From NCBI GenBank assembly GCA_009842645.1, contig VYFB01000052.1:2501-35547 (forward strand): a DNA stretch of 33,047 nt, in the 5' to 3' direction. This document shows positions 17,371 through 22,574 of this stretch, piece by piece; within the stretch, counting starts at the first letter, position 1, and the number at the start of each line of letters is the position of its first letter. The notes beneath the pieces were generated by a model. It made no database searches, was not told the DNA's origin, and was given only the letters and a program-made list of their open reading frames with translations. The stretch comes from Nitrospira sp. SB0677_bin_15 (GTDB lineage Bacteria; Nitrospirota; Nitrospiria; Nitrospirales; UBA8639). The translations under genes and the position numbers were made by a program.

Positions 17371-17461
17371 AAGAACCCGGCAGCCTCCACTCAATCTGAG
17401 CATTCTATCAATCCAATGATGAAGAATGCAGCTATCACGTGAGGCTCGGAGAGCCGCTTTA

Positions 17462-17616
17462 TTGACACGTTCGGGAAAACGGGCTTACATTATATTATGA
17501 GAAATTTTTTACAAAAGAGGCAGGTGATGGGGTAGTTTCCAGGACATCCTGCGGCAGAGAAAATCGAGGCAAAGCCCTTTGGATTATGATGGATCCAAAG
17601 GGCTTTGCCAGTTTTC
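17462..17616 (+). ncRNA. Candidate small RNA or 5' leader: promoter-like sequence followed by a perfect hairpin with a short T-run
   Basis: TTGACA (17462-17467) - 18 bp - TACATT; perfect 17-bp stem GGCAAAGCCCTTTGGAT (17568-17584)/ATCCAAAGGGCTTTGCC (17593-17609), then agtttt. No good ORF between. Confidence 0.45.
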
Positions 17617-17763
17617 GGTCCTGATAGCGAAACTTGGTCCTTTCCGCACGTGAACGGTCGAGGGATTTGACGAGGCCGGAAAACCGTCACCTCGGTCTCT
17701 CGATATGGGGCGCAGTGCGGGGAGGCAAAATCATTATGGGCTTTTTTATCAAGGAGGGTCATC

Positions 17764-18558
17764 ATGACTGAACCAAAAACTGCTGCAATGTTTGGCTCCA
17801 AACCGGGGAATGGCCGCGTCTTGTTGATAGAGGACGACCCCGGTATTTGCAAAGAGATGCGCACGACCCTGGAAACGGCGGGGTTCGACGTATTGGAGGC
17901 CGACACGGAAGATCGGGCCATCGGTATGGCCAGGGAAGGTGAAAATCCATTGCTGCTTGACGTGGTGATTACGGATGTCGACAAGAAACTGGGTGTCGGG
18001 TCCCTGAACTATTTTAAATCCCAATTTCCGCATATTCCCTTGATTGCCTTAACGGGCATGATCGATCAGGAAAGTTCCGGTTCTTCGACCATTAGGATCG
18101 GCGTGGTGGGAGCCGGGAGAGGCGGGCGGGCGTTGCTCGACGTGTTCCTGCACCTTCCGGACATCCAGGTGGTGGGCGTCACGGACAAGAATCCCGGAGC
18201 GACGGGGTTACAGTTCGCGCAGGAATTTGAGATCCCGGTAGTGCCTGAGCCGATGAACCTGATACGCAACGAACACGTGGATCTGCTGATCGACGTCACC
18301 GGCGACCCGGCCATGGAGAGGTTGATCGCCGAGAACAAACAAGAACGGACCCAGGTGCTCAGTGGAGCCGCGTCAAAGCTTTTATGGCTACTGGTTCAAC
18401 GGGAACGCGAAATCCAATCCTACGTGCTTCGGTCTGAAAAGTTGGCGGGGATGATTCGTGACGGGGTGAAAGATTTTCTGATGAAACCGATCGGGAAGGA
18501 TCGTTTGGTAAAGGCGGTTTCATCGGCCGTGGAGCAACACGAATTGAGTCGTTTGTGA
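17764..18558 (+). CDS. Response regulator whose receiver domain is interrupted by a Rossmann-like (NAD(P)-binding type) domain
   Basis: SD AAGGAGG upstream. N-terminal receiver part 'GRVLLIEDDPGICKEMRTTLETAGFDVLEADTEDRA...DVVITDV...IPLIALTGMIDQES'; insert 'TIRIGVVGAGRGGRALLDVFLHLPDIQVVGVTDKNP...VDLLIDVTGDPAMERLI'; receiver resumes 'IRDGVKDFLMKPIGKDRLVKAVSSAVEQHEL'. Confidence 0.85.
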   Translation: MTEPKTAAMFGSKPGNGRVLLIEDDPGICKEMRTTLETAGFDVLEADTEDRAIGMAREGENPLLLDVVITDVDKKLGVGSLNYFKSQFPHIPLIALTGMIDQESSGSSTIRIGVVGAGRGGRALLDVFLHLPDIQVVGVTDKNPGATGLQFAQEFEIPVVPEPMNLIRNEHVDLLIDVTGDPAMERLIAENKQERTQVLSGAASKLLWLLVQREREIQSYVLRSEKLAGMIRDGVKDFLMKPIGKDRLVKAVSSAVEQHELSRL

Positions 18559-18566
18559 GGAGATCC

Positions 18567-18625
18567 GACGATCGTGGCCCCCGGGCCGCGGCTTGGCCCG
18601 GGCCCGGGACGGCTACAGGATCGTC
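18567..18625. terminator. Candidate bidirectional terminator between convergent genes
   Basis: GACGATC (18567-18573)/GATCGTC (18619-18625) enclosing the GC-rich stem GGGCC..GGCCC. Confidence 0.5.
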
Positions 18626-21003
18626 TTGATGGTGTTCCCGGGCGCGAGGGTCTGGAATTGGTCTTTGACGGATACCTGAATCGGGGCCGCAAGACCCGGG
18701 CATGAGGTTAACTGAAAAGTGTTTTGGGTCACGGACACGTCCAGGGAATGTCCCCGATACCTCGCCCGGAGGTGAAGGGCTTCTACTGCCGAAGGAAGGC
18801 AGGGATTGAAACAAAGCGCGCCGTCCCTGGCCTTCCATCCCGTATAGGCGCGCTGCATCAGATCCACTGTCCCGGCCATGGCTCCCGTGTGGATGCCTTC
18901 TGCTGTGGTGCCGGCTTGCAGGTCAGACACGTCCACGCCCAATGCATCCTTGAACAGTTTCCAGGAAGCTTCAGGGTCTGACTTTGTCATGGCCCAAGCA
19001 TGCACCACCCGGCTGAGTGAAGACCCGTGTGCCGTTCGCGCCGAGTAATATTCGACGTTCCGGGAAATGGTAGTGGTTTCGAAGGGATAGCCCAACCGGT
19101 CGAACAGGGATTGCAGTTCCTCCTTGGAAAACACATAAAAGAGCATCAGAACGTCGGCCTGTTTGGAGAGTTTGTAACGGTTCGTGGAATCCCCTTCGGC
19201 TTCCAGGATTCGATCCAGCCGGTGGATGTCCCCGTATCGTTGCCGGTAGCCTTCCCAATCAAATTCCGCCAAAGCCTCATACCCTTCAAATTGACTGATG
19301 ATTCCCTCGTCGTGAAACGGCACGAACATCTTCCGGCTGATGTCTTCCCACAAGGCGACCTCGGTGGGGCTGACGTGAAGGAGGTCCCGCACTTCGGGCC
19401 GGTTTGACGCCGCGAGCCGGTCCAGGAGTTCCAAAGCCCGGCATAGAATCCAGACGACCATGACGTTGGTATAGGCGTTGTTGTCCAGCCCGGGGGTTTC
19501 GGAATCCGGATACTGATCGTGGTATTCATCGGGTCCCATCACCCGTAAAATCTCATAGCGTTCCTTTTTGGGATCGTATGACGTGGTGCTGACCCAGAAC
19601 CTGGCGATCTCCAGGAACATTTCCGCGCCTTGGGAGGAAAGAAACTCCCAGTCGCCGGTGGCTTCGACGTACTCCCAGATGTTATAGGCAATGGCCGCGT
19701 TCACGTGTCGTTGAAGCGTGCTCAGGTCCGGGATCCATCGGCCGGATTTGGGGTTCAGGTGCAGGACCTGGCTTTCTTCACGGCCGTTGCTGCCGCTTTG
19801 CCAGGGATACAGCGCCCCGCTGAATCCGGCTGTTGCGGCGTTCCGCCTCGCCTGTTCGAGGCGCCGGTGCCGGTACAACAACAGCGCCTTCGTCAGGGCC
19901 GGAAACCGCAGGTTCAACACCGGGAAAATGTACAGTTCATCCCAGAAAATATGGCCCCGATACGCCTCGCCGTGCCATCCCCGTGCGGGAACGCCCGCGT
20001 CCAACTCAACCGTATGCGACGAGACCGTTTGCAGCAGGTGAAAGAGGTGTAACCGGAGCGTGAGTTGTGAGCCTTCGCCGCCCTGAAGGCCCAAGTCGCA
20101 CTGTTGCCAGACCTGAGCCCAGCGTTGAGTATGCGAGCGGAGCAGTTCCTCGAACCGGCCGGCATGCACGAGGGCATCACGGGCTTCTTCTCCGCATTCG
20201 GATATGCCGTGATCGCGCGAGGTATACAACGACGCGATTTTTTCAATGGTCAAAGGCTGTCCTTCCGTCATGGAAATCGTACATTCCTGGGCGACGTAGG
20301 CCTGTTCCTGCACCAAGGTCCCGGGCAGGTCTGCCCAAGCCGCATCGGGAAAGAACCCTGTGCGCGCGGCTTGGGCGATGCGGACTTTCGATTGAGTCGT
20401 CTCCGTACACAGAAAGATACTGTCGTGCTCGAAAGCAAAGGCTTCCAGGGGAGATAAGTGAAGGTTGTTCAGGGCCGCGTAGCGCGGCACGCCGGTGTTG
20501 CGAACCCGGCCGTCGAGGCCGGTATGAATCTCCAACGGACCGGACCAGTTGTCAGGGGTGATGACGACCTCCAGCCCGGCCAGGTGCGGATCACCCAAAT
20601 GGACGAACCGGCGGCTGTTCACCGTGGTCTTTCGTCCTTCGCGGTCCTGAAATTGATACGAACGGTGCAGGACCCCAGCCTTCAGGTCCAGGGTCTGGCG
20701 GTAAGAGAGCAGATCAACGGCCTGAATGTTGAACCACTCGCCGCCGGGGTGGCGAAAGGTGAGGACCAACCAATTCGGCAGGTTCACGAGGTCTTCATTC
20801 TCGATCGTCCGGCCTTCGATCTCGGTCTGCAACCGGTTGTATCCGCCGGCCAGGTAGGTTCCCGGGTAGTGCGTGGCATCGGCGTGGGCTTCGGAAGCCG
20901 CCCCGCGGGTGGCAAAATACCCGTTGCCCAGCGTACACAGGGCTTCGCGGAGGCGTTCCTTCGCGGGGTCGAACCCGTCGTAGATCAAGGCCCAGTCGCT
21001 CAT
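18613..21003 (-). CDS. Glycoside hydrolase family 65 protein (trehalose/kojibiose/maltose phosphorylase type)
   Basis: 'ALCTLGNGYFATRGAASE', 'GHIFWDELYIFPVLNLRFPALTKALLLYRHRRL', 'YPWQSGSNGREESQ', catalytic 'MGPDEYHDQY', 'DNNAYTNVM', 'KQADVLMLFYVF'. Confidence 0.92.
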   Translation of the reverse strand: MSDWALIYDGFDPAKERLREALCTLGNGYFATRGAASEAHADATHYPGTYLAGGYNRLQTEIEGRTIENEDLVNLPNWLVLTFRHPGGEWFNIQAVDLLSYRQTLDLKAGVLHRSYQFQDREGRKTTVNSRRFVHLGDPHLAGLEVVITPDNWSGPLEIHTGLDGRVRNTGVPRYAALNNLHLSPLEAFAFEHDSIFLCTETTQSKVRIAQAARTGFFPDAAWADLPGTLVQEQAYVAQECTISMTEGQPLTIEKIASLYTSRDHGISECGEEARDALVHAGRFEELLRSHTQRWAQVWQQCDLGLQGGEGSQLTLRLHLFHLLQTVSSHTVELDAGVPARGWHGEAYRGHIFWDELYIFPVLNLRFPALTKALLLYRHRRLEQARRNAATAGFSGALYPWQSGSNGREESQVLHLNPKSGRWIPDLSTLQRHVNAAIAYNIWEYVEATGDWEFLSSQGAEMFLEIARFWVSTTSYDPKKERYEILRVMGPDEYHDQYPDSETPGLDNNAYTNVMVVWILCRALELLDRLAASNRPEVRDLLHVSPTEVALWEDISRKMFVPFHDEGIISQFEGYEALAEFDWEGYRQRYGDIHRLDRILEAEGDSTNRYKLSKQADVLMLFYVFSKEELQSLFDRLGYPFETTTISRNVEYYSARTAHGSSLSRVVHAWAMTKSDPEASWKLFKDALGVDVSDLQAGTTAEGIHTGAMAGTVDLMQRAYTGWKARDGALCFNPCLPSAVEALHLRARYRGHSLDVSVTQNTFQLTSCPGLAAPIQVSVKDQFQTLAPGNTIKTIL

Positions 21004-22574
21004 GGCGTTTGGCTTTCCAGGTGACGACTCAATCGCACGAGAAATTCTTTCACCTCATGGGGGTTTTGCAATGAATAGGAGGCCGAGGAAAAACGGGAGC
21101 CGTGCTCCACCACGATCCCTACGCCACGCTCCACCAACTCACGAAACGCATGCTCGTCCGTCAAGTCGTCGCCGAGATACATGGGCTGGTACTGGCGCTC
21201 TTTCCATTTCAGCCCTTCCAGCAACCACAACAGGGCTTTCCCTTTGTCCCAGTCGAGTTGCGGTTGCATTTCAAAGACCATCTTGCCCGCCGAGCGCCGG
21301 AGATCGGGAGACTCGGCCATGACCCGGGCAACGGCCTCTTCGACTTTGGAGGCTTCACCGGGATCGACCAGGCGATAATGCACCGCGATGGAAAATTTCT
21401 TTCGCTCGATCAAGGTGCCGGCAATGGGTTCGAGAAGAGGCCGCAGCATGGCCTCCGCGTGATCGAGGGCCTTGGAAAATTGGGTTCCGACTTCATGGGA
21501 CAAGGCGAAGCGTTCCGGTCCGGCTATGTCGAATCCATGGCTACCGGCGTAGATCAGCGAGTTCAGGTTGACGAGATTCGTGACATCCTTGCGGTCCCGG
21601 CCACTGATAATCCCCACCGGACATTGATGACTCAACGCGTCCAGGACGTCCCGCACGTCCTGCGCCAACACGGCCAGTTCGGGCCGGTCCACAATCGGCG
21701 TCAGGGTGCCGTCGTAATCGAGAAATACCACCGGTTGTTTTCCTATCCGTTTCAGGACGTTGTCGAATCGATCGAGCGCGGACGGCAGGGCCGTGGCGCT
21801 GCGCCACGTGATTCCGGCTTCGTCCCGGACCACGAGTTCTTCCAAATCGGGGACAACCAGGTCGCCGCCGTGGGCGTACAGGGCTTCGGCCTGGCCGACG
21901 CGATCAAGGCCCACGACCAGGCCGAATGATCCGGCCCGGCCGGCTTCCACCCCGGCCAGCGCGTCTTCACACACCACGGCTCGTTGAGGCAGGACCTCCA
22001 AACATTCGGCGGCTCTCAAGAAGGTGTCGGGGTGCGGTTTCCCGCGCAGGCTCAAGGCACGGGCATCCCGGCCGTCCACCATCACCTCGAACAGGTCCGT
22101 CACCCCCGCGGCTTGCACGATGACCCGGCCGTTTTCACTGGCCGTGACGATTGCGGTTTTTTTGCCCAGAGATTTGAGCAGCCGCATGAGCGCGACCGTC
22201 GAGGGAAAGACCTCCACTCCGTTCTCGTGCAGGGCCTTCAGGAACTGGACGTTTTTGCGATTCCCCAGCCCGCAAATGGTCTCCTGCTCGGGCGGGTCCG
22301 AGGGGTCTCCATGGGGCAGCGTGATGCCGCGGGAGGCCAGAAAACAGGTTACGCCGTCGTACCGTGGCTTGCCGTCCACGTAGGCGCAATAATCATTGAC
22401 GGGGTCGAAAGCGTGAAACGGCTCCCCGGTTTGCCCGGCTTGCGTCCGGAGATAATCATCAAACAGGTGTTTCCACGCGGCCGCATGAACCGCCGCAGTC
22501 CTGGTGATAACTCCGTCGAGGTCAAAAATCGCGGCATCGAATCCGCTCAATTCCAGTATGGGTTGATCCGTCAC
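21000..22574 (-). CDS. Fused beta-phosphoglucomutase-like HAD hydrolase / trehalose-6-phosphate phosphatase (OtsB)
   Basis: N-terminal 'FDLDGVITRTAAVHAAAWKHLF ... RGKPHPDTFLRAAECLEVLPQRAVVCEDALAGVEAGRAG'; C-terminal 'VFLDYDGTLTPIVDRPELA ... IISGRDRKDV ... YAGSHGFDI ... YLGDDLTDEHAFREL'. Confidence 0.92.
   Translation of the reverse strand: MTDQPILELSGFDAAIFDLDGVITRTAAVHAAAWKHLFDDYLRTQAGQTGEPFHAFDPVNDYCAYVDGKPRYDGVTCFLASRGITLPHGDPSDPPEQETICGLGNRKNVQFLKALHENGVEVFPSTVALMRLLKSLGKKTAIVTASENGRVIVQAAGVTDLFEVMVDGRDARALSLRGKPHPDTFLRAAECLEVLPQRAVVCEDALAGVEAGRAGSFGLVVGLDRVGQAEALYAHGGDLVVPDLEELVVRDEAGITWRSATALPSALDRFDNVLKRIGKQPVVFLDYDGTLTPIVDRPELAVLAQDVRDVLDALSHQCPVGIISGRDRKDVTNLVNLNSLIYAGSHGFDIAGPERFALSHEVGTQFSKALDHAEAMLRPLLEPIAGTLIERKKFSIAVHYRLVDPGEASKVEEAVARVMAESPDLRRSAGKMVFEMQPQLDWDKGKALLWLLEGLKWKERQYQPMYLGDDLTDEHAFRELVERGVGIVVEHGSRFSSASYSLQNPHEVKEFLVRLSRHLESQTP

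Follow-up and report, generated by a model that had tools for sequence, protein, structure and literature searches.

A Nitrospirales receiver domain split by a Rossmann module shared with histidine kinases, a probable ligand-responsive receiver

The locus

The window, the whole 33,047-nucleotide stretch of DNA analysed here, comes from a Nitrospirales genome of 2.55 Mb. Its closest named records are those of an uncultured Nitrospirales bacterium and of Nitrospira sp. bin75, which we take to be sponge-associated. The genome would be placed in Nitrospira lineage IVb, the members of which are mostly sponge-associated and have smaller genomes (PMC12342949).

The gene under study is a forward-strand open reading frame of 264 amino acids at 17764-18558, with coordinates and content as the first-pass annotation had described. 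It encodes a chimera of a receiver (REC) domain and a Rossmann module, and is monocistronic, lying between a divergent polA and a convergent GH65 gene (both on the minus strand). The features referred to below are as follows.

17462..17491, + strand: sigma-70-like promoter match TTGACA-18-TACATT (10/12), upstream of the chimera
17751..17757, + strand: strong ribosome-binding site AAGGAGG, 6 nt 5' of the ATG, kept in 8 genomes
17764..18558, + strand: chimeric gene REC-N / Rossmann module / REC-C (264 aa; Pfam, ORF)
17764..18087, + strand: REC N-terminal part, residues 1-108, beta1 to beta4 plus exit linker (Pfam, alignment, model)
17974..17976, + strand: Asp71, phospho-acceptor (Asp in 16/18 chimeras, Asn in G066 and G067)
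18052..18054, + strand: Thr97, switch Thr at the end of beta4 (invariant)
18088..18366, + strand: Rossmann module, residues 109-201 (GAGRGG loop, Asp141, DVTGDP, SGAASKLLW)
18184..18186, + strand: Asp141, acidic residue closing beta2 (Asp in all chimeras, Asp/Glu in most kinases)
18367..18456, + strand: shared helix, residues 202-231, the last Rossmann helix and the kinase pre-H-box linker (LRSEKLAGM) running into the residual REC alpha4
18451..18555, + strand: REC C-terminal part, residues 230-264 (end of alpha4, beta5 with Lys241 in MKP, alpha5)
18484..18486, + strand: Lys241, conserved REC lysine, C-terminal of the insert (invariant)

The interval between polA and the chimera contains two conserved stretches. 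The non-coding block at 17462-17615 contains, in this order, the promoter-like match, the conserved GAGGCAGGTGATGGGGTAGTTTCC... and a 17-bp hairpin free of mismatches, with AGTTTTC after it. It is kept in eight genomes of the window's genus, and a search of the block against Rfam gave nothing above threshold. Judged by these features the block is a candidate small RNA gene, which the promoter match may serve; one genome without the chimera (G012) still has a sequence matching 17400-17585 (76%). The second stretch, 17620-17745, lies directly 5' of the ribosome-binding site and is predicted to be strongly structured (consensus fold, little covariation), and might be the leader of the chimera mRNA. 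On the other side of the gene, at 18613-22574, a GH65 glycoside phosphorylase-type enzyme adjoins a fused HAD hydrolase and trehalose-phosphatase protein, a probable trehalose or disaccharide unit. The output of the chimera could not be read from its gene neighbours, the gene being monocistronic and the flanking genes differing outside the window's genus.

A receiver split by a complete Rossmann module

The gene had been annotated as a receiver interrupted by a Rossmann-type insert, and both the Pfam matches and the AlphaFold model bear this out. Response_reg matched the whole protein over residues 19-109 with 44.7 bits. When the insert was spliced out, a step that had been expected to restore a normal receiver, the score indeed rose to 52.5 bits and the match covered all but the last of the 111 profile positions (1-110; PF00072, cut-off 30.2). 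By itself, the 40-residue C-terminal stretch matches the end of a standalone REC (40% identity, E 8.7e-7), and the predicted fold is that of a (beta-alpha)5 receiver, running from beta1-alpha1 to beta4 and resuming with beta5-alpha5 after the insert. The full receiver set is present in the window protein, namely the acidic pair E23/D24, D71, T97 and K241; with its acceptor Asp and acidic pocket intact, the protein does not display the losses of a pseudo-receiver. The chain ends at EQHELSRL, straight after alpha5, and lacks an Arg-rich C-terminal tail of the Cle type. The claim that there is no further output domain also held, as none was found in Pfam or in the model and the chain simply goes back to REC.

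The insert is a complete Rossmann module about 120 residues long. From residue 110 onwards Pfam gave GFO_IDH_MocA (E 9.6e-7, above the cut-off) and DapB_N. The former (PF01408, positions 1-67 of 120) scored 29.9 bits in the whole protein and 32.2 bits with the insert alone, against a cut-off of 24. The catalytic second domain of Gfo/Idh/MocA enzymes is absent from the chimera, as it is from the kinases carrying the same module (hereafter Rossmann-kinases). A profile of the module searched against PDB sequences returned only five matches at E 0.001, consisting of acetaldehyde dehydrogenases and the NADH sensor Rex. The GxGxxG loop (GAGRGG) and D141 are both present, and this motif type is invariant across 18 chimeras. 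An acidic residue closing beta2 usually marks a preference for NAD over NADP, and Asp141 would thus be an NAD-type signature. The ligand of the module would be a dinucleotide, most likely NAD(H).

Junctions and predicted structure

The junction had been assigned to the beta4-alpha4 region, and the same junctions recur in 18 homologues. Comparison of REC sequences (ALTG- or VLTGFPDMEMATSFLKHGIVDYLVKP) with the chimera (ALTGMIDQESSGSST-[module]-EKLAGM-IRDGVKDFLMKP) refines this assignment, indicating that the insert does not sit cleanly in the loop and that it replaces the first half of alpha4. The segment LRSEKLAGM had been proposed to be a kinase linker preceding the H-box, which is supported by the Rossmann-kinases, in which LFQAEKLAGM occupies that place.

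AlphaFold2 modelling with a curated 27-row alignment gave a mean pLDDT of 81.8 and a pTM of 0.49. Two recognisable folds were obtained, REC up to beta4 (93-97) and a Rossmann fold at 110-199 mostly with pLDDT above 90, while their mutual orientation is uncertain at this pTM. They are followed by one unbroken helix (202-231), beta5 (235-240) and alpha5 (245-263), and confidence is low at both junctions (residues 100-106 and 226-232). Several solved receivers align with the model across the insert, among them 3jte with a TM score of 0.81 on its own length over 248 columns. In the structure predicted for a Rossmann-kinase, the counterpart of helix 202-231 (residues 101-128) leads to the DHp helix (133-157).

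Distribution and selection

The same architecture was found in 18 proteins that are 39-88% identical to the window protein, all within one Nitrospirales family. Full-length chimeras occur in 16 of the 49 family genomes, in at least five of the ten genera and in nine of the 14 genomes of the window's genus; one genome (G015) carries two. Misassembly or a frameshift is ruled out by the identical junctions in independent genomes, including G009 and G010, two single-contig genomes of the window's genus. Full-length chimeras were found neither in 24 genomes from other families of the order, nor in the sample from the rest of the phylum, nor on plasmids. The single match outside, a 'Gammaproteobacteria' contig (L055, JAALKB010000128.1), is probably mis-binned, because its coverage (73.9) almost equals the value for a Nitrospirae bin of that sample (73.6); spread beyond Nitrospirales was accordingly rejected. 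The chimeras L042, L044 and L055 carry an N-terminal hydrophobic segment in place of the usual leader, probably a membrane anchor. The gene is dispensable for some relatives, since it is absent from five of the 14 genomes of the window's genus and the polA-GH65 interval of G012 keeps only its last 22 codons as a deletion remnant.

The chimera is under purifying selection in all three parts, with dN/dS values within the genus of 0.13-0.24 over the full gene and no higher than 0.30 in any of the three segments, the Rossmann part evolving somewhat faster than the REC parts in most comparisons. Across the family, the Rossmann motif has been conserved more tightly than the site of phosphorylation. 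GxG[KR]GG, the Asp closing beta2 and DVTG are invariant in all 18 chimeras, whereas L041 and L043 depart from the usual acidic pair and G066/G067 have Asn in place of the acceptor Asp. The window's genus keeps E23/D24, D71, T97 and K241 throughout.

Origin from a receiver-kinase pair

Kinases with the same N-terminal module were indeed found. Relatives in the family and the order encode a standalone REC of about 144 residues followed by a Rossmann-HisKA-HATPase kinase of about 343 residues, adjacent and on one strand. The chimera is similar to both partners. Its leader MTEPKTAAMFGS corresponds to standalone REC leaders such as MSETKTAAMFSG and its tail EQHELSRL to the standalone tail MEQREIHRL, while the end of its insert (LRSEKLAGM) corresponds to LFQAEKLAGM-GTFASGIAHDINNPL in the kinases, the linker directly before the H-box. 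Module and linker are thus common to the chimera and the kinases, and sequence kinship suggests that the donor kinase was the product of the gene adjoining the parental REC in related genomes. At the three loci examined (L047, L050 and L051), the REC/kinase pair stands beside a dCache-HAMP-PAS kinase and a Tll0287-like c-haem protein in an apparent operon.

A single origin is compatible with the trees of both the Rossmann part and the REC part (p-AU 0.44 and 0.41, respectively). All chimeras also share a two-residue deletion after the phospho-acceptor Asp (DIRMPKINGVEA vs DVDKK--LGVGS), and the usual Met-Pro of the post-Asp loop is lost in every one of them. Emergence on one occasion is thus allowed by these sequences, not proven, and independent origins are superfluous because one clade is rejected in neither tree and the deletion is common to all. 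The chimera probably arose when a REC-kinase pair was duplicated and two deletions then occurred in frame, a course that would directly yield the observed order of parts.

Proposed mechanism and alternatives

Building on the architecture and its conservation, the linker shared with the kinases, the purifying selection and the predicted two-fold topology, we propose the following ligand, allostery and output. In an ancestral operon, the gene for a CheY-like REC would have preceded that for a histidine kinase carrying a Rossmann sensor at its N-terminus, and a copy of the sensor together with its signalling helix would have been inserted into alpha4 of REC. The Rossmann module would bind a dinucleotide, most likely NAD(H), and binding would shift the helix at the C-terminal end of the module. 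In the kinase this helix runs on into the DHp/H-box helix, in the chimera into alpha4 of REC. The shift may then reset the alpha4-beta5-alpha5 output face, so that a protein partner would be bound according to the cellular redox or NAD state. With Asp71, Thr97 and Lys241 kept in the window's genus, phosphorylation of D71 may be a second, combined input there, and it appears from the sequence changes to have been weakened or lost in other lineages. We give a probability of about one half to this reading of the protein as a ligand-responsive single-domain receiver in which a dinucleotide moves alpha4 and the output face. The more specific version, an NAD/NADH sensor made by domain insertion, in which the redox state switches the output face with no kinase and phosphotransfer is bypassed, is put forward more tentatively. 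If the proposal is true, the protein is a natural transplant of a kinase sensor into its partner receiver, by which a two-component system has been short-circuited into one ligand-gated protein, and it offers a testable example of one helix doubling as kinase signalling linker and receiver alpha4.

The first-pass annotation had suggested that redox or dinucleotide binding gates phosphorylation or output. The split receiver, the junction, the module and linker shared with kinases and the lack of an output domain in that interpretation were all supported, and the rest of it stands as a proposal. The idea that it is phosphorylation which is gated is weakened by the altered post-Asp loop of all chimeras, the acidic-pocket changes in two proteins and the Asp-to-Asn replacement in one lineage, and an output face controlled solely by the ligand is an equally good fit. 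An ordinary phospho-receiver, switched mainly by kinase phosphorylation of D71 with the Rossmann module serving dimerisation or stability and no sensing, would agree with the phosphorylation site and acidic pair kept intact in the window protein and its whole genus, with the lowest dN/dS falling in the REC parts in most comparisons, and with the at least 15 HATPase-type proteins above the cut-off in the genome as possible donors. However, such a receiver would hardly be expected to have lost two residues and Met-Pro from the post-Asp loop in every chimera, to have the first half of alpha4 replaced, or to vary at the acceptor (G066/G067) and acidic pair (L041/L043) while GxG[KR]GG, Asp141 and DVTG never vary, and we regard this reading as rather unlikely. 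The opposite view is that phosphorylation plays no part in any member and that a REC-shaped surface is controlled solely by the ligand of the Rossmann module, in a Cle-like or FrzS-like manner. This view has precedents (PMC5677366, PMC1974792) and would accommodate the Asn acceptor of one lineage, the degraded acidic pocket of two proteins and the beta3-alpha3 loop altered in all. It is unlikely given that 16 of the 18 chimeras retain the Asp and all retain the Thr and Lys, and that the fully canonical site of the window's genus would be unexpected if it had no role.

The chimera might also act as a decoy or modulator of the parental system, using its Rossmann or its REC part either to pair with Rossmann-kinases or to compete with the standalone REC. 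Co-occurrence of the chimera with the REC/Rossmann-kinase pair in three genomes (G024, G026 and G034) and the kinship to both parental partners in both trees are in line with this idea, but its supposed target is missing in the window's genus because the HisKA-type Rossmann-kinase pair is absent there, leaving only a distant HisKA_3-type Rossmann-kinase (32% identity), and it is considered improbable. That the gene is an artefact of assembly or a decaying, functionless fusion is very improbable. Its patchy presence in the genus and the 22-codon remnant in G012 would be compatible with decay, which is contradicted by the purifying selection on all three parts as measured by dN/dS; open frames with the same junctions in independent assemblies, among them the two single contigs, and the presence in at least five genera also argue against it.

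Comparison with known systems

The nearest relative of the chimera is the Nitrospirales REC/Rossmann-HisKA pair (G017, G026, G058 and others), which has the same REC leader and tail, Rossmann module and kinase linker. It differs in consisting of two proteins, with an unsplit REC that keeps the canonical DIRMP loop and a Rossmann module that faces the H-box instead of alpha4. The redox-sensing repressor Rex (PDB 5zz5 family), among the few PDB matches of the module profile, also has a non-catalytic Rossmann module, which serves Rex as its NADH/NAD sensor. Rex has a winged-helix DNA-binding output, forms a domain-swapped dimer and, unlike the chimera, contains no REC. The NAD-binding domains of Gfo/Idh/MocA-type enzymes and acetaldehyde dehydrogenases share the GxGxxG loop, the acidic beta2 end and an NAD-type Rossmann profile, and differ in having a catalytic second domain, which neither the chimera nor the kinases possess.

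Cle proteins, CheY-like c-di-GMP effectors, are ligand-activated single-domain RECs in which alpha4-beta5-alpha5, the proposed effector face, was suggested to be remodelled and phosphorylation is dispensable (PMC5677366). The proposed action of the chimera would be analogous, in that a nucleotide ligand would activate REC via the same face. The Cle ligand site is, however, a short C-terminal Arg-rich tail with an alpha4 Arg, whereas that of the chimera would be an inserted folded domain. Pseudo-receivers such as FrzS (PMC1974792) and the aspartate-less receivers (PMC4395418) have the REC fold and, like some chimeras, deviate where phosphorylation would take place. They differ in that no insertion of a second fold into the domain is described for them, and most chimeras keep the Asp, Thr and Lys. 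In the open-licence literature we found neither a receiver split by a Rossmann fold nor a Rossmann-sensor kinase of this type. Taken against these systems, the chimera is atypical as a receiver and probably ligand-responsive.

The same module in other proteins

The Rossmann module also stands at the N-terminus of HisKA and HisKA_3 kinases, sigma-54 activators, a GAF-GGDEF protein and GAF-PAS-kinase-REC-REC-GGDEF hybrids, and its spread over so many output types fits a general sensor. If this is true, the Nitrospirota module that precedes kinases, sigma-54 activators and cyclases would be a redox/NAD sensor of nitrite oxidisers, of which no description was found in open-licence papers. The window's own genome encodes, on another contig (C131, L002:1315-2562), a 415-aa HisKA_3 kinase with the same N-terminal module beside a NarL-type response regulator; it is matched in nearly all family genomes and is apparently the widespread form of the Rossmann sensor. 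In more distant Nitrospirota, L147, L148 and L149 encode Rossmann-GAF-PAS-kinase-REC-REC-GGDEF hybrids of about 1100-1140 residues (Pfam-checked in L147). In the Rossmann-GAF-GGDEF protein at L150:629-2257 the sensor precedes a diguanylate cyclase.
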